A stretch of 36,984 bases of DNA, taken from NCBI RefSeq assembly GCF_022770205.1, contig NZ_JALEIK010000030.1, positions 1 through 36,984 on the forward strand. The letters run 5' to 3'. Shown one piece after another: positions 3,680 through 16,196 of the stretch. Within the stretch, counting starts at the first letter, position 1, and each line of letters begins with the position of its first letter. The position numbers were made by a program, and so were the translations under genes. The notes under the pieces were generated by a model that saw nothing but the letters and a program-made list of their open reading frames with translations, was not told where the DNA came from and made no database searches. This DNA is from Helicobacter sp. (GTDB lineage: Bacteria > Campylobacterota > Campylobacteria > Campylobacterales > Helicobacteraceae).

Positions 3680-4696
3680 ATGAAATTTAAATATTACATT
3701 AGCGCACTCTTCATTTTTATCGTGCTTTTAGGTCTTTATGTTTATAGCTTAAGCGGAGAAAGTTATACTTTTGTGTTCCCATTTAGCACAAAAAGCATCA
3801 CTTTACCTGTGGCGGTTTGGTATGTTTTGCCTGTTGTTGCATTTTTCATTGTTGTCGTGTTTTTAGAAGTGGGCGGCGCATATAGAATGTGGCGCAAACG
3901 CACAAAATACAAAAATGACTACAAAATATTGCTTGAACAGCTAGAAAATCAACTTTTAGGAAAGGATTCCACACTACAACCCACAATGAACCGCTACAAA
4001 TCCCTATCCATCTTACTCAGCAATCTAACTCTTGATGTTAAAGAAGGAATCGCACTAAAAAGCGGTGAAGCTAGAATGGATGAACTCATTGAGCTTTTAG
4101 GAAATTTAAAGCGTGGAGAATATGTGCATTTAAAAAAATTTAATCCCAATGACAAATCCCCTTTTGTTCGCCAAAATACACTTAACCAAATCCAACACGA
4201 TGAAAAATTCGCCACAGAAGTGCTAAAGTGCACGAACTTTGATGAAACATACAAGCGCGCAGCCTTTAAAAAACTTCTTGATGGAGATAATCTAAAAGAT
4301 ATCAAGCGTTTCGTTGGAGAAGTAAAGTTCAACAAAGACTTAGCAAACACTATTCTTGGAATGTGCTATGCTAGAAAAATGGACTTTAGCAATACAGAAA
4401 TTGCACAACTTTGCTCAGAGGTTGGGTATAGCAAACAAGATTATCTCTTGCTTGCCCAAAAAATGAAAGAATGTTATGAGCCTACAAGCTGGATAAGTTT
4501 ATTTGAAGAGTTAGCAAATCAAGATGAAAATGCTGAACTTGCGTATTTTTATGTATTACTAGAACTTGAAATGCTAGAAGAGGCAAAAGAGCGATTAAAA
4601 ATGCACCCGGATAATGAACTATTAAAAGTGCGTGCATATTTGGATTTAAAAAACTTAGGCAAAAAATATCCCCTTGAGTTATTCTTATTAGACTAA
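3680..4696 (+). CDS. Membrane-anchored hypothetical protein, 338 aa
   Basis: The N-terminus has two hydrophobic segments (about residues 5-24 and 43-64), the second followed by a basic RMWRKRTKYK stretch, so the bulk of the protein should be cytoplasmic. The remainder is hydrophilic and helical, with repeated Leu/Glu/Lys pairs that look like TPR- or HEAT-like helices (for example NAELAYFYVLLELEMLEEAKERL near residue 285), but I cannot name a domain. The start is 1 nt after the dksA stop, indicating coupling. As I recall, a gene of this kind follows dksA in Campylobacter too, which suggests a conserved but uncharacterised protein. It ends inside a terminator hairpin. Confidence 0.75.
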   Translation: MKFKYYISALFIFIVLLGLYVYSLSGESYTFVFPFSTKSITLPVAVWYVLPVVAFFIVVVFLEVGGAYRMWRKRTKYKNDYKILLEQLENQLLGKDSTLQPTMNRYKSLSILLSNLTLDVKEGIALKSGEARMDELIELLGNLKRGEYVHLKKFNPNDKSPFVRQNTLNQIQHDEKFATEVLKCTNFDETYKRAAFKKLLDGDNLKDIKRFVGEVKFNKDLANTILGMCYARKMDFSNTEIAQLCSEVGYSKQDYLLLAQKMKECYEPTSWISLFEELANQDENAELAYFYVLLELEMLEEAKERLKMHPDNELLKVRAYLDLKNLGKKYPLELFLLD

Positions 4697-4715
4697 AAGG
4701 CTTTTAGCCTTTTTT
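4696..4715. terminator. Bidirectional intrinsic terminator between convergent genes
   Basis: AAAGGCT (4696-4702) and AGCCTTT (4706-4712) form a perfect 7-bp stem over a TTT loop, followed by a T-run on the plus strand; an A-run before the stem supplies the U-run for the minus strand. It overlaps the stop of the 3680 gene and abuts the trpB stop (4714-4716), so it should end both convergent transcripts. Confidence 0.8.
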
Positions 4716-5922
4716 AACCTTCACCATACCCATATTTTTCTACAACAAAATCAATATCCTTATCGCCTCTTCCGCTAAGATTGACTAAAATCTTCTTACC
4801 CTTTAATTCTGAAGCAATTTTTAGTGCGTAAGCAACAGCGTGGCTAGATTCAATTGCTGGAATAATCCCTTCATTTTTACTTAATTCAAAAAATGCACTA
4901 ATGGCTTCTTTATCTAAAATAGTTTCTGTTTTGGTGCGCGCAATGCTGTTTAAATATGCGTGCTCAGGTCCAACACTGGGATAATCAAGCCCACTTGCTA
5001 CACTATGCACAGGTGCGGGATTACCATTTTCATCTTTTAGCATTATAGAATTAAATCCGTGCATTACACCTTCACTTCCATAAGTAAGACTTGCTGCGTG
5101 CTGCCCTAACTTACTACCTAATCCTAAGGGTTCAACCCCTATAAGTTCCACATAATCTTCAATAAAACCACTAAAAATTCCCATTGCATTACTACCGCCA
5201 CCCACACAAGCCACTACAATATCTGGCAACTCTCCTGTCATCTCCAAAAATTGCTCTCTGGATTCCACTCCAACAATTGCTTGAAAATCACGCACCATCT
5301 TAGGAAAAGGATGGGGACCAACCACAGAACCAATGGCATACATAGAATGATCCAAATCCTTCAAATATGCTTCAAATGCAGAATCCACAGCCTCTTTTAA
5401 TGTTTTTGCACCAAAGCTAACAGGAATCACCTTTGCGCCTAAAATTTTCATTCTAATCACATTAGGATGCTCTTTTGCAATATCCACTTCACCCATATGA
5501 ATTTCACACTCTAGCCCAAAATACGCTGCAGCCGTTGCAAGCGCCACTCCGTGCTGTCCTGCTCCCGTTTCTGCAATGAGTTTCTTTTTACCCATAAATT
5601 TTGCCAAGAGTGCCTCACCCATACAATGATTTAACTTATGCGCTCCTGTGTGGTTTAAATCCTCTCTTTTTAAATAAATCCCTGCCCCACCATATTTTCT
5701 TGTCAAATTATGCGCATAATAAATTGGCGTCGGACGCCCTTGAAAATGCTTTCTAATCTTACGCAACTCTGCAATAAAATCACTATTTTGCGCAATTAAA
5801 TCATAGGCTACATTAATTTCTTCCATTGCCTTTTTTACTACATCTGGGACAAAACTCCCACCAAAACGCCCAAAAAATCCCTCCGTATTTGGAAATTCCT
5901 TTAAATAAGGCTTTTTTTGCAT
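4714..5922 (-). CDS. trpB: Tryptophan synthase beta chain, stand-alone
   Basis: TrpB condenses indole with serine using pyridoxal phosphate. The PLP lysine is Lys96 in HTGAHK, the phosphate loop is GGGSNAMG (241-248), and GAGQHGVA (120-127) is the family loop. Length 402 aa matches TrpB. I choose ATG 5922 ([10 protein letters not shown]) because AAAGGAGAG precedes it and it starts 11 nt after the upstream gene stops; a longer in-frame start would overlap that gene. No trpA, trpC or other trp gene is nearby, so this copy may work with a distant TrpA or salvage free indole. It is the last gene of a nine-gene minus-strand run that starts at pyrH. Confidence 0.93.
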
Positions 5923-5933
5923 TTTCTCTCCTT

Positions 5934-6437
5934 TTATACTTTTTTCTTTATTGTTAGCTTCATCATCCAACCATTACTCCAACCAAACAATGCCAAGATA
6001 TAAAACACTTTACGCACTTCAAAATACGATTCTCCATTGACAAACTTAAAATTCCCAAAAAGCATTACAAAACACACCACAAACAATAAAAAAATATTAA
6101 AATATTCATAAGAATCCACAGCTCCATAACGCTTAAAGCAATAATATCCCACAAAACAAAGCCCAAAACAAAGAAGTCCTAAATCCACATAACCATAGAT
6201 TCCAATTTTAAAAAATGGCACCATTGCAAACCCAAAAAGCACACAAATCATAACACTAAAATTTGGTTGCATTAATTGCAAAAGCTTTCCAATAGTACTT
6301 TTATCAAAACTTAGATTTGTCAAATAGGCAACAGAAGGAAGTAGCATAAAAAGACAATAAAACACATAATCTGTGATGATTTGATAAACATTTTTATTAA
6401 AGATATCATTTCTACTTAAAACTATGGAATCCTCCAA
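5934..6437 (-). CDS. Integral membrane protein, 167 aa
   Basis: Four or five hydrophobic segments are visible (about residues 22-40, 60-78, 82-100, 112-130 and 142-158), with aromatic-rich helices and a short basic C-terminus (KLTIKKKV). There is no recognisable transport or enzymatic motif. Its start overlaps the end of the next upstream gene by 16 nt and its stop is 11 nt before trpB, so it belongs to the pyrH-to-trpB run. Function unknown; the pairing with a second small membrane protein suggests the two may form a complex. Confidence 0.65.
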
Positions 6438-6769
6438 TGAAAAACATCTAAAAATGTGCGCTCCAATAAAAATATCTCACTATAAAGCAGAAATAAAAAC
6501 ACGCATAGCACAATTCCGATTGCAAAACTATACAATTTTGGCAAAGGACCAATAGCAATACGCACAATATTAAAAATTGCCACAATAACACCACAAATTA
6601 GCAAAATAATTCCAATATTAAAATACACTCCACTAGGTTGCGTTGTCAAACGAAACATTTGCCCAAACTCATCAAAATAACTCGCTAAAACCAACATTAG
6701 AATCGTAAAAAGTGCGAACACAAAATAAAGCGAAGCAAACACGAGATAAGGAATGGTAATCTTACGCAT
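6422..6769 (-). CDS. Small integral membrane protein, 115 aa
   Basis: Three hydrophobic helices (about residues 8-30, 48-70 and 78-103) separated by short polar loops; no signal cleavage site and no motif I recognise. It lies 9 nt after amiA and overlaps the following membrane-protein gene by 16 nt. Its position directly behind a cell-wall amidase raises, without proving, a role in the envelope. Confidence 0.65.
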   Translation of the reverse strand: MRKITIPYLVFASLYFVFALFTILMLVLASYFDEFGQMFRLTTQPSGVYFNIGIILLICGVIVAIFNIVRIAIGPLPKLYSFAIGIVLCVFLFLLYSEIFLLERTFLDVFHWRIP

Positions 6770-6778
6770 TTTTAACCC

Positions 6779-7897
6779 TTAAGGATTCTTTTGAAAATAT
6801 CCATCCACACCATCAGCAATCCCTAAAGCAAGAGCTTTTTGGTAAGCACCTTGATTAATGCGCTTGCCCTCTTTTGGATGTGTAAGATACCCAACTTCTA
6901 ACAAAACAGAAGGCATCAATGCGCCCACAAGCACCCAAAAAGGACCTTCACGCACTCCTCCATCAACAACCCCCTTATACTTTTGGCGTAGCCCTTGCAG
7001 CATTCCATATTGAATGTCAATCGCAAGTTTATTAGAAGCCACAATCCTTTGTTTATTTAATGTGTTTAAAAAAGATTGTTTAGAAAAATAATTCATAACC
7101 CCCGTATCGTCTTTGTTTTCTATCGCAGCAACTTTCTTAGCACGCTCACTTCTAGCAGTGGATAAAAAATAACTTTCCACACCCTCTAACTTCTCCTTAT
7201 TTTGAGCGATTGCATTTGCGTGGACTGAAATAAATAAATCCGCATTCTTATTATTTGCAAAAGTTGTTCGCTCTCGCAATCCAATAAACACATCATTTTC
7301 ACGCGTCATATAAACCTTGTAACCACGCTTTTTAAGCTCATCTCGTAAATATTTAGCAATATGCAACGCTATCACCTTCTCACAAACCTTCTCAACACTA
7401 ACTGCCCCACAATCCTTGCCACCATGTCCGGGATCCACAACAACAATCCTACCCTTGCCTATCTCCTTACCCACAACTGCATTTTTTTGCACCATTTTCC
7501 CATCAAAAAGTGCTGCAATGGAAATACTCTCTGTTTGCTTCTTTAAATTTGGAATCCTAAAACTTGCCCGCTTATTCTTAATATCCAAATCAATCTTAGC
7601 ATTCTTTGGAAGCGCAATCACAAGGCGAACCTTTTCCTTAGAATTCTGCGCAACTTTAATATTCACACCATCTTGAAAATCAAATACCCTAGCAGAGCCT
7701 AACAACTCCGCATTAATATCATACACATAACGCACCACGCCCTTATTTTCTAACACAAAAGATTTAAAAGCACCCTCCTTCACATTCGCATTAAAATCTA
7801 GTGCGATTCCATCTTCTAGCTGTTTTGCAGCTGTAATTTTTAAATCTGCTAAAAGCAAGGCAGAAAATAAACACAATGCAACAATTAGACGCATCAT
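6779..7897 (-). CDS. amiA: N-acetylmuramoyl-L-alanine amidase, periplasmic
   Basis: Zinc amidase that cuts the bond between N-acetylmuramic acid and the stem peptide during cell separation. Residues 1-17 are a signal peptide (MMRLIVALCLFSALLLA). An AMIN-like beta domain spans about 18-115, and the Amidase_3 catalytic domain about 150-368. Zinc ligands by family are His158 (VDPGHGG), Glu173 and His226 (SVHAN); the catalytic glutamate is Glu334 (LLEVGYLTH). Length 372 aa is normal for an AmiC-like enzyme. It starts with ATGATG at 7897; the first ATG overlaps the ancestral TGA of the upstream nitronate monooxygenase (7894-7896), which points to translational coupling in the intact operon. Confidence 0.92.
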   Translation of the reverse strand: MMRLIVALCLFSALLLADLKITAAKQLEDGIALDFNANVKEGAFKSFVLENKGVVRYVYDINAELLGSARVFDFQDGVNIKVAQNSKEKVRLVIALPKNAKIDLDIKNKRASFRIPNLKKQTESISIAALFDGKMVQKNAVVGKEIGKGRIVVVDPGHGGKDCGAVSVEKVCEKVIALHIAKYLRDELKKRGYKVYMTRENDVFIGLRERTTFANNKNADLFISVHANAIAQNKEKLEGVESYFLSTARSERAKKVAAIENKDDTGVMNYFSKQSFLNTLNKQRIVASNKLAIDIQYGMLQGLRQKYKGVVDGGVREGPFWVLVGALMPSVLLEVGYLTHPKEGKRINQGAYQKALALGIADGVDGYFQKNP

Positions 7898-8994: not shown

Positions 8995-10209
8995 TTATTT
9001 AATAATCACTTTTGCAAATTTGCGCTTTCCAATCTGCAAAATATACTCACCCTCTTGCAAATGCAACTTAGAGTCCTCTACCTTCTTGCTATTAAGCTTT
9101 AAAGCACCTTGTTGTATCGCACGCAATGCTTCGGAATTAGAAACGCACAATCCGCAATCTTGTGCCAATTGTGCTATCCAAATCCCCTTTTGCTTTGTAA
9201 AAGTTGGCATATCACTTGGCAGCTCCTCTTTGCTAAATACTCTTACAAACTCCTCTTTTGCTGCATTTGCCACTTTTTCATCATAATAACGCGTAATAAT
9301 TTCTAGGGCTAAATTCTCTTTTACAACCTTTGGGTGTAACTCCCCTTTTTCAACACCTTGTTTTAATCCTGCAATTTCTTGCAAGCTCTTTGTGCTTAAA
9401 AGCACATAATACCGCCACATTAAGGAATCTGAAATGCTTAAAAGCCTCCCAAACATCTCCTTTGGTTCTTGCGTGATTCCCACATAATTCCCTAAGCTCT
9501 TACTCATTTTTTGCACACCATCTAAGCCTTCTAATAGGGGCACCATTACGACAGATTGCTCCTTCTCTAACCCATAAGCACGCTGTAAGTGTCGCCCCAT
9601 AAGCAAATTAAACTTCTGATCCGTGCCACCAAATTCAATATCACAATTTAATGCCACAGAATCATAACCCTGCAAAAGCGGATAAAAAAATTCCACAATG
9701 CTAATGGGATTTTGATTCTTAAAGCGTTTTTCAAAATCATCACGCTCTAACATTCTAGCGACAGAAAACTTCGCTGCAAGCTCAAGCATTCCACGCGTCC
9801 CTAAAGAGTCTAACCATTTAGAATTAAACACAATCTCCATTTTAGACGCATCTAGCACCTTATAAACCTGCTCTGCATAAGTCTTTGCATTTTGTAAAAC
9901 TTGCTCTTTACTTAGCGGCTTTCTTGTCTCGCTTTTACCTGAGGGATCACCTATCATTCCTGTAAAATCTCCAATGAGAAAAAACACCTTTGCGCCATAT
10001 TTTTGAAAAGTTGCTAGTTTTTGCAAAAGCACAGCGTGTCCTAAATGTAAATCCGGTGCTGTTGGATCAAATCCTGCTTTAATCGTGTAAGTTTTGCCCT
10101 CTTTTAAATACTTTGTTACAAGCTCTTTAATAGAATCAAAACCAATAATCTCCTGCACTCCGCGTTCAAGCTCTATAAGAGCATCTTGAACTTGGGATTC
10201 CACACTCAT
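8995..10209 (-). CDS. tyrS: Tyrosyl-tRNA synthetase
   Basis: Class I synthetase that charges tRNA-Tyr. The HIGH motif is HLGH at 55-58 and the KMSKS loop is present exactly at 234-238. An S4-like RNA-binding domain occupies about 335-404 and is preceded by the usual helical anticodon-recognition region. Length 404 aa fits. The ATG at 10209 is 9 nt after the spoT stop, and AAGGAG lies within that gap. Part of the pyrH-rpoZ-spoT-tyrS run. Confidence 0.95.
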   Translation of the reverse strand: MSVESQVQDALIELERGVQEIIGFDSIKELVTKYLKEGKTYTIKAGFDPTAPDLHLGHAVLLQKLATFQKYGAKVFFLIGDFTGMIGDPSGKSETRKPLSKEQVLQNAKTYAEQVYKVLDASKMEIVFNSKWLDSLGTRGMLELAAKFSVARMLERDDFEKRFKNQNPISIVEFFYPLLQGYDSVALNCDIEFGGTDQKFNLLMGRHLQRAYGLEKEQSVVMVPLLEGLDGVQKMSKSLGNYVGITQEPKEMFGRLLSISDSLMWRYYVLLSTKSLQEIAGLKQGVEKGELHPKVVKENLALEIITRYYDEKVANAAKEEFVRVFSKEELPSDMPTFTKQKGIWIAQLAQDCGLCVSNSEALRAIQQGALKLNSKKVEDSKLHLQEGEYILQIGKRKFAKVIIK

Positions 10210-10218
10210 CTTTTCTCC

Positions 10219-12366
10219 TTAGTCCGCATACGCATCTTTTAGCGCATACACATCAATGATTTTATAATTATTTCCCAACAAGCTTCTAATAACCTTTAAC
10301 TCCGAAACACTACTCTCAAAACGCACTTCACAATGCGTTGCATAAGTGCTTTTTTGCGAACCAAGCTCCACACCTAACACATTAATATCCTGCTTTGCAA
10401 GAAAAGTTAAGAAATTTGCAAGCACACCTTTTTGATTCTCTAATGCCACAATTAGCTTATAAGTCTGCAATTTATCCTCTAACCAATCCACATAAAGCAT
10501 TTTCACGCCTTTTTGAATCTCTAAATATGCTCTATCGCAAAGCTTATGATGCACAAAGGCTTTAGAACCACTTTTAAAAGCAATGATGGAATCGCCAAAT
10601 TTTGGATGGCAACAATAATCAAACACTGCCTGATTTATCGTATGATTTGTTTGAATCACAAGATTATCAAAATGCAACTCTTTTAACTTTAAAATTCTAA
10701 TTTTAATCTGTTCTAAAAATCCAGCATTTTTACGATAGTTATTCTTAATACGATTCTTAATATCCTTAAGATAATTAATATCCGTCGTTGCACGATACAC
10801 CATATCTTCAAGATTATTTTGCACAATATAATTCTCAATTTCTTCTGCACTTTTACCAAAAATTGTAGCGATAATATTAATCGCACTTTTGCGCTCAATC
10901 TCCTTAATTCTGCTTGCACAATTCATCTTTAATTGACTTTTTGCGCGTGAAGTTTTCACAGCATCCATCCAAGAACAACGCAAAATCGTGTCCTTTGCGG
11001 TAATGATTTTCACAATATCACCACTCTTAAGCGTAGTTAAAAGCGAAGTTTTTTGATTATTCACATAGGCTTCTTTTGCACGATTCCCAACTTCTGTATG
11101 CACTGCATAGGCAAAATCAAGCACCACAGCACCAATAGGCAAGGAATAATTATCCCCATCTGGGGAAAACACTACAATATCCTCTCTATACAAATCATTT
11201 TTAACAAGCTCATAAAACTCTTCAATAGAATTGTTATGAAACTGCAATTTATTAAGCCAATCAAGACTTGGACCACTATTTCCACCTGTTTTATACTTCC
11301 AATGCGCAGCGATTCCATATTCTGCACTTTTGTGCATATCCTCTGTACGAATTTGCACTTCAAAAATTGCAGAATCATCAAAAAGCGTACTATGGATTGT
11401 TTGGTAACCATTCTCTTTAGGCAGTGCAATATAATCTTTAAAACGCGACATAATAGGTTTGAAGCGCAAATGCAAAATCCCAAGTGCGCGGTAACAATCA
11501 AGATGTGTTTTGACAATCACACGAATGGCTAACAAATCCAATACCTCATCAATAGAAATCCCCTTGCGCTGCATTTTTAAATAAATAGAATAATGCCTTT
11601 TTACACGGCTAGCAATTGTAAAATCTCCCTCTGGAATACCCCCTTGAATCAAGCTCTTTTTTGCTTTTTGAATGAAAGCGTTAAGTTTTAGTTGAATTGT
11701 CTGTTTATGGCTTTGAAAATATGTATCAATCTTACGATAATCTTGGGGAAAAATATAATAAAAGCTCCTATCCTCCAACTCATTTTTAAGCGAAGAAATC
11801 CCAAGCCTATGAGCAATTGGTGCATACACCACAAGTGTTTCCTCAGAGATTCTGCGTTGTTTATTAGGAGCAAGCGCATCAAGCGTTAACATATTATGCA
11901 GCCTATCACAAAGCTTTACAACAAGCACACGCACATCTTTAACAGAAGTAATGAGCATTTTTCTAAAACTTAAAGCTGCTACAACTAATTTTTCATTAGA
12001 ATGTGAAGCAGGAAACTCTTCTGCTCGGATTGCCACAATCTTTGTAAGCCCATCCACTAAAGACGCCACATCTTCACCATAATCACGCACCACATCTTCA
12101 AGCGTATAATCCGTATCCTCCACCACATCGTGCAACAACGCCGCACACACCATCACCTCATCACCACCAAAATGCAAAACAATACACGCCACAAGCAAAG
12201 GATGCACAATATAAGGCTCTCCACTCTTGCGCTTTTGTAGCTTATGGGCTTCTGTAGCAAAAGCAATGGCATTTTGGATATTTGGCGTCATCTCCACCAT
12301 AGAATACAATAACTCCAATGCCACTTTCGGACTAGAAATTTGCGCAATTTGTTCTAAAAACTTCAC
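10219..12366 (-). CDS. spoT: Bifunctional (p)ppGpp synthetase/hydrolase SpoT/RelA
   Basis: Single RelA/SpoT-type protein that makes and degrades the alarmone (p)ppGpp. The N-terminal HD hydrolase domain (about 25-180) keeps LLHDVVEDT with His79-Asp80, so hydrolysis should be active. The synthetase domain (about 235-365) has the RVKRHYSIYLKM strand and the segment from ENGYQTIHST to EVQIRT. A TGS domain follows (about 395-455), then a conserved Cys/His helical region and a C-terminal ACT domain (about 640-715). This is the long ribosome-responsive architecture, usual where one Rsh protein serves the cell. It lies between rpoZ and tyrS, an association that keeps omega and the ppGpp enzyme together. 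Confidence 0.95.
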   Translation of the reverse strand: MKFLEQIAQISSPKVALELLYSMVEMTPNIQNAIAFATEAHKLQKRKSGEPYIVHPLLVACIVLHFGGDEVMVCAALLHDVVEDTDYTLEDVVRDYGEDVASLVDGLTKIVAIRAEEFPASHSNEKLVVAALSFRKMLITSVKDVRVLVVKLCDRLHNMLTLDALAPNKQRRISEETLVVYAPIAHRLGISSLKNELEDRSFYYIFPQDYRKIDTYFQSHKQTIQLKLNAFIQKAKKSLIQGGIPEGDFTIASRVKRHYSIYLKMQRKGISIDEVLDLLAIRVIVKTHLDCYRALGILHLRFKPIMSRFKDYIALPKENGYQTIHSTLFDDSAIFEVQIRTEDMHKSAEYGIAAHWKYKTGGNSGPSLDWLNKLQFHNNSIEEFYELVKNDLYREDIVVFSPDGDNYSLPIGAVVLDFAYAVHTEVGNRAKEAYVNNQKTSLLTTLKSGDIVKIITAKDTILRCSWMDAVKTSRAKSQLKMNCASRIKEIERKSAINIIATIFGKSAEEIENYIVQNNLEDMVYRATTDINYLKDIKNRIKNNYRKNAGFLEQIKIRILKLKELHFDNLVIQTNHTINQAVFDYCCHPKFGDSIIAFKSGSKAFVHHKLCDRAYLEIQKGVKMLYVDWLEDKLQTYKLIVALENQKGVLANFLTFLAKQDINVLGVELGSQKSTYATHCEVRFESSVSELKVIRSLLGNNYKIIDVYALKDAYAD

Positions 12367-13354: not shown

Positions 13355-13460
13355 TTACTTCGCCTTTATTGCAACAATACTTAAAGTCTGAAATTCTAAT
13401 AAAAACTTACTTAAAGAATCGTGTAAATTTCTTATTTCTTAATTTTCAGGATTTTTAAGT

Positions 13461-13466
13461 TATATT
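13461..13466 (+). promoter_or_regulatory. Candidate -10 box for the R-M locus
   Basis: TATATT lies 38 nt before the R-M start codon and would start a short leader. The ribosome-binding site contains six G in a row (13496-13501), six bases before the ATG. A -35 box is not evident, as is usual in this group. Confidence 0.35.
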
Positions 13467-13504
13467 ACAAAGCACAAAAAAGGGCTAAAACAAAAGGGGG
13501 GCAA

Positions 13505-15205
13505 ATGTATTCTCCAAACATATCTGAAGAAGAGTTAAAAGCAAAAGTTAAAGAAGACTTTTTCAGCTCAAATCCACAAAATGAAAACATCAAGCTAGAC
13601 AAAGCACAAAAAGCCATTTTAAAAAACCTAGATTCCACGCAGATTATAGGGCGCATTGATTTTTGTGTAAGTTATGATTCAAAAACACTTTTTCAGCCTA
13701 TAAACTTCCTATGGGCTGAAGCTAAAAAGGGCAATACAAACGATATTATAGAATCTTTTATCCAGCTCATTTTTACGATTAAAAAGCAAAACATTTTAGC
13801 CGATAAGCCCCTTTTCTTAGGTGCGTTTGATTGTGAGAAAATCGCCTTTATTTATTATGGAGAAGTAGCAGATATTATTGAAAGACAAACAGATTTTAAT
13901 TGGAATGTTACACCAAGTAACCACAACACAAAAGAATTTAAACAACTCTACACTAAAACAAAAGAACTTTTAGAATCCAAAAAATTGCAATTTAGATTCA
14001 AAGAAGATTGCAAAGCTTTACAAAGTTTTATCCAAGAAAATTTCACACTCGCTAACACAAAACTACACAAAGTCCAAGTAGAGCAGACAAATTTTATCCA
14101 CATTTATTACCGATGGTTAAATGAAGTTGCACCAAGTATTGATATACAATGGCATAAATGGGAAAAAAATTTTTTAAATGCAGATTTTTTCTTAGCGGAT
14201 TTACTCAGTGAAAATAATCATACAGAATCCATTAGAGAAAACCTAAGAGTGCTTTTACAAAACAATTTCTATGAAGCAAAACTAGCAACAACACAAGAAC
14301 AACTAGAAGACTTCTACTATAAATTCCGCTTTAACGATAAGCAAAAAGCCCACACAGCCTTTTGGAATCTCTATGAAAGACCGCCGAAAAAAGAGTATTG
14401 GAGCTTTTTTACAGGGCGTAGAGATTTACTAGTGCCAAGCAACATACGGGAGAGAAAGGGAGAGTTTTTCACCCCAGATATTTGGGTAAGAAAAGCCCAA
14501 AATTACCTAGAACAAGCACTAGGAAAAGAGTTTTACGAAGATTACTGCATATGGGATTGTGCAGCAGGCACAGGCAATCTACTCAAAGGCTTAAGCATAA
14601 ACCCAGCTAAAATCTATGCTTCCACACTTAATCCACAAGATGTAGCAGATATGCAAACAAGTTTTTCAATGCAGAATCATATTTTTCAATTTGATTTTTT
14701 AAATGATAATTTATTTGATAAACCTTGTAATACTCACAAAAAAGGTGGATTAGATTCCGAATGTCAAAACTGCCAAAAATCTAAATTACCAAAATCTCTA
14801 CAAGAGATTCTAAAAGATGAAGCAAAATGCAAAAAGCTAATCATCTTTATTAATCCACCCTACGCAGAAGCCACAACTGCTACAACACCAGCAGGCACAG
14901 GTGAAAACAAAGCAGCAGTTAGCACAGGCAACGCCACCTATGAACGCTATAAAGATTCTATGGGAAAAGCTAGCAATGAACTTTTCGCACAATTTTTCTT
15001 TAGAATCTACAAAGAGATTCCACATTGTATTCTAGCAGGCTTTTCAACGCTGAAATATGTCAATTCTAGCAACTTTATAAAATTTAGGGAAACTTTTCAA
15101 GCAAAGTTTCTCAAAGGCTTTATCGCTCCAGCTTTCACCTTTGATAATGTCAATGGAAACTTCCCCATAGGCTTTTTAATATGGGATTTAAGCCAAAAGG
15201 AATGA
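13505..15205 (+). CDS. Type IIG restriction-modification enzyme, nuclease-methyltransferase half
   Basis: N-terminal and catalytic half of an Eco57I-like enzyme that both cuts and N6-adenine-methylates DNA. The front carries a PD-(D/E)xK nuclease pattern: Asp52 (RIDFCVSY) and Glu72-Ala-Lys74 (WAEAKKG). Next come a helical linker with EYWSFFTGRRDLLVP and ERKGEFFTPDIWV, the SAM-binding motif WDCAAGTGNLLKG and the catalytic NPPYAEA (motif IV). Between the last two, a Cys/His patch (C-N-T-H then C-Q-N-C) resembles a small zinc knuckle. The product ends GFLIWDLSQKE, where one-piece relatives, as I recall them, continue directly into the target-recognition part. That part is encoded 44 nt downstream in another frame. 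The gene lies between two housekeeping blocks, as acquired R-M genes often do. Confidence 0.85.
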   Translation: MYSPNISEEELKAKVKEDFFSSNPQNENIKLDKAQKAILKNLDSTQIIGRIDFCVSYDSKTLFQPINFLWAEAKKGNTNDIIESFIQLIFTIKKQNILADKPLFLGAFDCEKIAFIYYGEVADIIERQTDFNWNVTPSNHNTKEFKQLYTKTKELLESKKLQFRFKEDCKALQSFIQENFTLANTKLHKVQVEQTNFIHIYYRWLNEVAPSIDIQWHKWEKNFLNADFFLADLLSENNHTESIRENLRVLLQNNFYEAKLATTQEQLEDFYYKFRFNDKQKAHTAFWNLYERPPKKEYWSFFTGRRDLLVPSNIRERKGEFFTPDIWVRKAQNYLEQALGKEFYEDYCIWDCAAGTGNLLKGLSINPAKIYASTLNPQDVADMQTSFSMQNHIFQFDFLNDNLFDKPCNTHKKGGLDSECQNCQKSKLPKSLQEILKDEAKCKKLIIFINPPYAEATTATTPAGTGENKAAVSTGNATYERYKDSMGKASNELFAQFFFRIYKEIPHCILAGFSTLKYVNSSNFIKFRETFQAKFLKGFIAPAFTFDNVNGNFPIGFLIWDLSQKE

Positions 15206-15246
15206 AATATAAAATTTCGCTAAAATTCAAACAAAATGGAAACTAA
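15203..15246 (+). other. 44-nt spacer interrupting the type IIG gene
   Basis: The segment starts with the TGA of the first half and ends immediately before the ATG of the second. It is AT-rich and holds a TATAAAAT-like -10 sequence (about 15209-15216). Removing exactly these 44 nt would fuse Q-K-E to M-K-K-S in frame and give one uninterrupted protein. AATGAAA occurs at both ends (15201-15207 and 15246-15252), suggesting slippage or recombination. Confidence 0.6.
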
Positions 15247-16188
15247 ATGAAAAAGAGCATAACCTTAGATATTTTTAATGAAAAAGGGGAGAGTTTAGGG
15301 AAAAAGAAATTCTACACAACGCTTGATAATAAGAAAAGTATTAACCAATGGATTAAGCGATATGATGATAAGAGTAATTTCAGGACAGGATTGCTTGACA
15401 CAAGGGGTAATGATTTTCAAAACCAACAATACATAAACATAAAAAGCCAAGATTTCATCATCACCGCACACAGCACGGGCTTCTATCTAACGCCAAACAA
15501 TCTAATCCCTATGGCTATCTATTTCTCCGTCCGCTATTGTATCAAAGCCACTTGGATAAATAATGGCGACCAGTTTTACCGCCCAAATAAAAAATGGGAA
15601 AAAGATATAGAGTTTCAAAATGATTGCCTTGCTTTTATGCTCTTTCACGGAAAAAATAGAATCACTGCTAAAGAAGGCATCAATCACTTTATCCCCTTTA
15701 GCGAATTAGAAATCAACGCACAAGAAGCCTTTAGCTCACACTTTATGCTAGACTTCATACAAGGCAAAATAAAATTGCAAAATTACAAAAAGTTGGAATC
15801 CAAAACCACACAACATAAACAAACAACAATAAATTTCTCAAACCAAACCCCACCTGCAAAAACCGATTCCAACTTTATCCCCACAAAACCACTCATTTTT
15901 AGCAAAGAAGCACAAGCTGTACTAAACGCAGGAAAAGTTCTTTTCAAGCATTATCACACGCAAACTAAAGATTCTAAAACCTACAATGCAAATGCTGCAC
16001 TCTATGATATAAAAGCGCATTTTCAAGGCTTTAGCAGTAATAGCAAGAGCAAGCCTAAGATGAACCTACCCAAAAAAGCAAAAGATGAAGCCTATAAAGA
16101 CAAGCTAGGTAATCTTAACTACGCCTTAAAAGACTTAGCAAAAAAACTAGAATCTAAAGTCTATGAATACGAATTTCTACTCCCATAA
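15247..16188 (+). CDS. Type IIG restriction-modification enzyme, target-recognition half
   Basis: 313 aa that match the C-terminal part of one-piece type IIG enzymes as I know them: GNDFQNQQYINI, the segment IYFSVRYCIKATWINNGDQF, EFQNDCLAFMLFHGKNRI, NHFIPF, and the ending YNANAALYDIKAHFQGF followed by L-A-K-K-L-E-S-K-V-Y-E-Y. This region selects the DNA target and helps position the flipped base. ATG at 15247 has only a weak ribosome site (TGGA), so expression may depend on reinitiation from the first half or on the spacer promoter. Whether the halves assemble in trans is unknown. Stop lies 8 nt before nnr. Confidence 0.8.
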   Translation: MKKSITLDIFNEKGESLGKKKFYTTLDNKKSINQWIKRYDDKSNFRTGLLDTRGNDFQNQQYINIKSQDFIITAHSTGFYLTPNNLIPMAIYFSVRYCIKATWINNGDQFYRPNKKWEKDIEFQNDCLAFMLFHGKNRITAKEGINHFIPFSELEINAQEAFSSHFMLDFIQGKIKLQNYKKLESKTTQHKQTTINFSNQTPPAKTDSNFIPTKPLIFSKEAQAVLNAGKVLFKHYHTQTKDSKTYNANAALYDIKAHFQGFSSNSKSKPKMNLPKKAKDEAYKDKLGNLNYALKDLAKKLESKVYEYEFLLP

Positions 16189-16196
16189 GGATTGCT

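Follow-up and report, generated by a model that had tools for sequence, protein, structure and literature searches.

A split Type IIG/IIL restriction-modification enzyme in Helicobacter and the probable toxin-antitoxin scar at its methyltransferase-recognition boundary

Two neighbouring genes of Helicobacter sp., g1 and g2, are consecutive parts of one Type IIG/IIL restriction-modification enzyme, HpyAXVI/Hpy99XIV-like and related to MmeI, and the 41-nt spacer that separates them is very probably the scar of a toxin-antitoxin (TA) module that has since been lost. The genes lie in a stretch of 36,984 nucleotides (contig NZ_JALEIK010000030.1, positions 1 to 36,984), referred to below as the window. 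The parts of the enzyme are as follows.

13505–15205, + strand: g1, nuclease and N6-adenine methyltransferase half (RM subunit) of the split Type IIG/IIL enzyme, 566 aa (from ORF, motifs, and predicted fold).
15247–16188, + strand: g2, target-recognition half (specificity subunit) with its own ATG, 313 aa, with additional C-terminal helices (from ORF, kept residues, and predicted fold).
~15380–15530, + strand: variable stretch of the target-recognition domain (TRD) inside g2, with allelic blocks swapped among relatives (alignment A2).

The initial annotation had read the two genes as one Type IIG enzyme divided between methyltransferase and TRD, and this reading is borne out by relatives that encode g1 and g2 as a single chain. 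The two ORFs lie in different frames and, as had also been stated, contain no internal stops, giving 879 stop-free codons in total. The motifs that had been named for g1 are all present: PD-ExK residues D52, E72, and K74 and the motif N450-P-P-Y453 are invariant in an alignment of 24 sequences, and the SAM motif D351-C-A-A-G-T-G-N358 is invariant there except for A354. Motif I precedes NPPY, the order of gamma-class N6-adenine methyltransferases, and the structural matches are N6-adenine methyltransferases. The AlphaFold model of g1 has a mean pLDDT of 75 and a pTM of 0.54, with a weak C-terminal part; the best matches to this predicted fold are DrdV, LlaGI, LlaBIII, MmeI, and BpuSI (Z 8.3–10.5), a chain of BsaXI is also among the matches (Z 7.3), and DrdV and BpuSI align with predicted g1 from residue 1, with a high whole-chain rmsd. 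In one-piece relatives the C-terminal third is the counterpart of the entire g2 product (40–67% identity), and the predicted fold of g2 opens with a strand at residues 4–10. A fold search with g2 alone gave only weak, unrelated helical matches (Z at most 3.0), a result compatible with a TRD fold. Because neither g1 nor g2 gave a relevant match in Pfam, NCBIfam, or PADLOC, their identity rests on motifs, relatives, and fold; a PDB profile search by sequence (alignment A1) gave no match.

The N-terminal PD-(D/E)xK nuclease, the gamma-class N6-adenine methyltransferase, and a C-terminal TRD of the same family are those of a Type IIG/IIL enzyme, a class also marked by SAM-stimulated cleavage and m6A methylation of one strand. 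The usual union of all domains in one polypeptide is not found, the enzyme being encoded by two ORFs in different frames across the 41-nt spacer, and the gene arrangement is that of Type IIB systems, in which RM and S polypeptides are separate.

The relatives of g1 surveyed in 121 genomes of the family (one genome per species, draft assemblies) are either one-piece ORFs of ~750–1000 aa or ORFs that stop where g1 stops. Outside Helicobacter the enzyme is one-piece: in 69 loci from Bacteroidota, Spirochaetota, and others, g2 homology begins close after the end of g1 and no locus has a gene between the parts (0/69), a distribution indicating that the one-piece form is ancestral. Point disruptions occur in a few of these non-Helicobacter relatives (L139, L143, L156). 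Between W560 and the first TRD strand, one-piece relatives have a linker of 10 residues; the window has 6 + 4 = 10, so the break cost no residues. Some one-piece enzymes outside Helicobacter are adjoined by extra g2-like genes (L141:9263–10099, L157:3745–4602, L174:5149–5991 and 10079–10942), possibly spare specificity cassettes.

Within Helicobacter the methyltransferase/TRD boundary has been opened repeatedly. On the g1 tree the split alleles are scattered among the one-piece ones, with at least 6 changes, and recombination at the junction leaves the number of TA insertions without a firm count. The g2 alignment contains a single variable TRD stretch, in which one block (alignment A2) is common to L032 and L040 and another to the split L037 and the one-piece H. 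canis allele L036, so that the same recognition part is found in both forms.

What the initial annotation missed is the cause of the split: in relatives a TA module separates the two halves, and the spacer corresponds to its leader. Exactly between g1 and g2 sits a type II TA module at 12 loci of the family (L031, L032, L033, L037, L039, L040, L041, L044, L045, L047, L048, and L050), where the gap between the halves is ~330–1160 nt. The gap mostly contains an antitoxin-like ORF of 62–64 aa and a Doc of 126–130 aa with the motif HPFxDGNKR; some loci have YafQ/RelE-type or other small gene pairs. The Doc of the relatives (HPFADGNKR) scores 57.2 bits against Pfam Fic (cut-off 24) and 40.2 against NCBIfam DOC_P1 (cut-off 38.65), and the YafQ-like protein passes the Pfam YafQ cut-off. 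In several loci (e.g., L033, L037) ATGA overlaps join antitoxin, Doc, and g2, which suggests that translation of g2 is coupled there to that of the TA operon. Doc is truncated in L039 and L050; L039 retains both g1 and g2 intact and is an intermediate towards the state of the window. In L043 (G038) g1 is followed by YafQ-type TA genes, and g2 is absent from the 12-kb stretch.

The same kind of module also occurs beyond these loci. G274, from another family of the same order, has an intact g1-antitoxin-Doc-g2 unit (L241, reverse complement 4490–7730) whose Doc is 93% identical to Helicobacter Doc, pointing to a recent horizontal transfer in which the unit travelled whole. Type I loci of G040 and G037 (L186:4465–8354 and L187:3240–7187, respectively) also have this antitoxin-Doc module, flanked by hsdM (640 aa) on one side and hsdS (446 aa) on the other, and in L245 (G115) hsdM is followed by the antitoxin and then a broken doc. 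Nearly all close Doc relatives (at least 58% identity) adjoin such restriction genes, and none of 12 more distant ones does (L088, L090–L100). Arrays of antitoxin-like genes surround Doc in L194:515–2318, L084, and L086, 3' of g2 or of g2 remnants, which suggests that TA genes have repeatedly accumulated and specificity genes been lost. TA genes inside restriction-modification genes, or between hsdM and hsdS, were not found as an arrangement in the open-access literature.

The features at and beside the junction of the window are given below.

15206–15246, + strand: 41-nt spacer, very probably the scar of a lost TA module; leader/promoter at ~15206–15236 and apparent last doc codons at ~15238–15246, GGAAACTAA.
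15208–15215, + strand: TATAAAAT, promoter-like and AT-rich (from the sequence).
15219–15226, + strand: GCTAAAAT, a TA leader core conserved in relatives (TTTTGCTAAAATTC) and candidate -10 element directly 5' of g2 (from the leaders of L037, L048, L039, and L241).
15113–15202, + strand: last 90 nt of g1; DNA identity of 94–97% to TA-split L031/L033 and 64–79% to one-piece L034–L036/L038.
15247–15306, + strand: first 60 nt of g2; 90–95% to TA-split L037/L031/L033 and 57–78% to one-piece L034–L036/L038.

A spacer of 44 nt with a promoter-like element had originally been described; the element TATAAAAT is present, but the true gap is 41 nt, the larger figure counting the TGA of g1. Deletion of 15203–15246 does join the frames as had been noted, although this is arithmetic for any two ORFs so separated and is not evidence. 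A consensus promoter scan of 15000–15400 found no promoter on the + strand, and a promoter at the spacer is proposed by similarity only. From the g1 stop onwards the spacer is collinear with the TA leader of G082 (TATAAAATTTCGCTAAAATTCAAACAAAA versus TAAAAAATTTTTGCTAAAATTCAAGCAAAA, score 38), a score that none of 2000 dinucleotide shuffles and none of 366 other upstream 41-mers attains. The last 15 nt of the spacer agree at 12 of 15 positions with the end of the doc gene that precedes hsdS in G040, a short match that none of 359 controls equals. Leader and doc end were scored separately, and the sum of the two scores tops all 1004 controls, the next-ranked of which include the doc ends of G040 and G037 themselves. 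No Doc match was found in the whole genome (G000), and the module is absent from the window, where only the leader and a possible doc 3' end are left. The leader match, the doc-like end, and flanks resembling those of TA-split alleles together indicate a TA scar as opposed to a simple frameshift.

The same evidence makes it scarcely credible that the gene is in fact one-piece and the break an artefact of sequencing or assembly. The genome is a draft of 38 contigs, but the break consists of 41 nt homologous to TA leaders followed by an in-register ATG, with no homopolymer indel, and the same split recurs in independent genomes, including those of the two nearest congeners. These, G082 and G076 (nearest by pyrH, 92% identity), both carry the order rpoZ-pyrH-[g1-TA-g2]-nnr-thiG, the same site as the enzyme of the window. 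In most other congeners pyrH adjoins nnr, with ~600 nt between them and no enzyme; the window has its enzyme between pyrH and nnr (13355–16196), where most congeners have an empty site. Its presence at the pyrH-nnr site would reflect either an insertion in a common ancestor of G076, G082, and the window or repeated insertions.

The order of events might also be reversed, with a leader-bearing split arising first, without TA genes in the lineage of the window, and the TA module inserted later behind the existing promoter in sister lineages. The 5' part of the spacer taken alone is compatible with a plain promoter, and the body of g1 groups with the one-piece allele L038 of G118 (support 99/91), which means that the TA-split-like junction must derive from recombination. 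This order is nevertheless improbable, since a similar leader (GCTAAAATT...ACAAAAGGAG) stands 5' of the TA genes between hsdM and hsdS in G040, indicating that the leader travels with the TA module, the end of the spacer resembles the end of doc, and TA genes occupy the same site in both nearest congeners.

A further possibility is a reversible off state, with the frames joined and parted by phase variation or by a recombinational switch. Relatives in the H. pylori-like clade have a tract of 7–11 C in the linker at the g1/g2 junction, in frame in L053, L055, and L059 and out of frame in L056, L057, and L068; this is apparently the first homopolymeric tract described for JHP1272/HP1353-1354, and apparently a known ON/OFF switch (PMC3936762). 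The junction of the window contains no homopolymer, tandem repeat, or other switch, and a deletion is irreversible. Recombination between the AATGAAA copies at 15201–15207 and 15246–15252, which the initial annotation had put forward as the switch, is refuted for those copies: they are 45 nt apart, and their collapse removes 45 nt and gives ...GAA TGA AAA, in which the stop is kept. Such an off state is accordingly very unlikely for the window. Two other changes are seen at this junction, a 13-nt tandem duplication (AGGCTTTTTAGTT) that breaks the one-piece frame in H. labetoulli (L049:5060–5110, oriented copy) and a 510-nt insertion exactly at the methyltransferase/TRD boundary in L061 (5462–5971, oriented copy), which contains repeated ENLKYNPLKE-like motifs and leaves an open frame of 998 aa.

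Present-day activity of the two-chain enzyme is a separate matter from its history and is favoured to a lesser degree. Among pairs of split alleles dN/dS is 0.08–0.24 for g1 and 0.15–0.26 for g2 after the TRD (neutrality ~1), and both ORFs of split alleles are under purifying selection. The window keeps 129 of 133 residues (g1) and 43 of 43 residues (g2) that are invariant in the others, the other rows of this set of 24 relatives missing 0–4. A two-subunit system, as initially suggested, is thus plausible and would be the favoured form given the conserved split alleles, the purifying selection, and the same split in sister species. The intact split unit of G274 and the TRD block common to split L037 and one-piece L036 also speak for it. 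Full restriction-modification activity of a covalent M-S fusion of EcoKI (PMC6158711) indicates that this boundary tolerates fused and separate chains. Frame-broken HP1353-HP1354 of H. pylori 26695 lacks activity unless its first tract is repaired (PMC3936762), so that two ORFs need not give an enzyme. The frameshift there appears to be at the same junction as the g1/g2 break, although the g2 part of HP1353-HP1354 may be without a start comparable to that of g2 in the window.

The inactivity of HP1353-HP1354 is also an argument that the locus is a decaying relic, with the enzyme inactivated long ago by the TA insertion and stops yet to accumulate in both ORFs. Damaged alleles are common in the family, g1 being broken in L047, L048, L050, and L060, and L043 has g1 without g2. 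This reading is a serious one but rather unlikely: the dN/dS values of both halves are unlike neutral drift, split and one-piece alleles are intact at similar rates (8/12 versus roughly 11–12/18), and the window retains its full length of stop-free codons and nearly all invariant residues.

The history that we propose would begin with g1 and g2 as one Type IIG/IIL chain. An antitoxin-Doc module would have inserted in Helicobacter exactly in the linker between methyltransferase and recognition domain, dividing the coding sequence into separate RM and specificity genes, of which the specificity gene starts at the stop codon of doc. The TA genes would later have been deleted in the lineage of the window, leaving a 41-nt scar of TA leader and apparently the last doc codons and placing g2, with its own start, directly 3' of the leader. 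The two polypeptides may associate as HsdM does with HsdS, or a Type IIB RM with its S subunit, to form an active N6-adenine methyltransferase/nuclease. Taken as a whole, this history together with a working two-chain enzyme is the explanation that we consider probable. For the TA genes themselves we infer their function and any role in guarding the locus. It is conceivable, and put forward tentatively, that a Doc-type TA subfamily is dedicated to Helicobacter restriction loci. In Type IIG and Type I systems alike it would be sited exactly where the catalytic module meets the specificity module, coupled in translation to the specificity gene. It could serve there for addiction or to guard the locus, and it could be the evolutionary wedge by which one-piece enzymes become RM + S pairs that go on working as two-subunit enzymes once the TA genes are lost, with the window as an example.

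Fused Type IIG enzymes have been proposed to derive from Type I systems in which M and S are separate (PMC6158711). The g1/g2 locus would be a natural case of the reverse step, from fused to separate, with TA insertion as the agent, and the intermediates are at hand, with TA genes present, decaying, or gone and sister species at one chromosomal site. Both Type IIG function in two chains and the reason why TA genes settle between methylation and specificity genes are thereby opened to direct test, and such loci are not to be labelled frameshifted pseudogenes in annotation.

Among known systems, the H. pylori Type IIG/IIL enzymes HpyAXVI/Hpy99XIV (HP1353-HP1354, JHP1272) have the same domain order and a break at what seems to be the same junction and are apparently of the same family; relatives of this type, with a PPP linker and poly-C, are 44–52% identical to g1, HP1353-1354 being likened via these relatives and its description. 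Their break is a reversible poly-C frameshift, whereas the window has a scar that is free of repeats, and its g2 starts at a codon of its own. The solved structures of MmeI, DrdV, and BpuSI share with predicted g1 an N-terminal nuclease, a helical part, and a gamma-class N6-adenine methyltransferase, but these enzymes are single chains, and the TRD half of the window is a separate gene. BsaXI and BcgI (Type IIB) resemble g1/g2 in having an RM polypeptide and a separate specificity polypeptide. Type IIB S subunits complete a two-TRD enzyme that cleaves on both sides of its site; g2 appears to carry a single TRD region, its alignment having one variable stretch. Extra genes between methyltransferase and specificity genes are likewise found in Type I hsdM-hsdS loci and in the hsd loci of Campylobacter jejuni, which reportedly contain intervening rlo and mlo ORFs (Miller et al. 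2005). Type I loci have M and S genes that are separate to begin with, whereas a Type IIG gene had to be split by the module. PrrC, embedded in the Type IC system EcoPrrI, is a toxin that arrests growth and whose gene likewise lies inside a restriction locus (PMC12707154). The Doc module resembles it in being a toxin gene within a restriction locus. To our knowledge, no link to restriction inhibition has been described for the Doc module; PrrC, in contrast, senses restriction inhibition, and the window has lost its Doc module.
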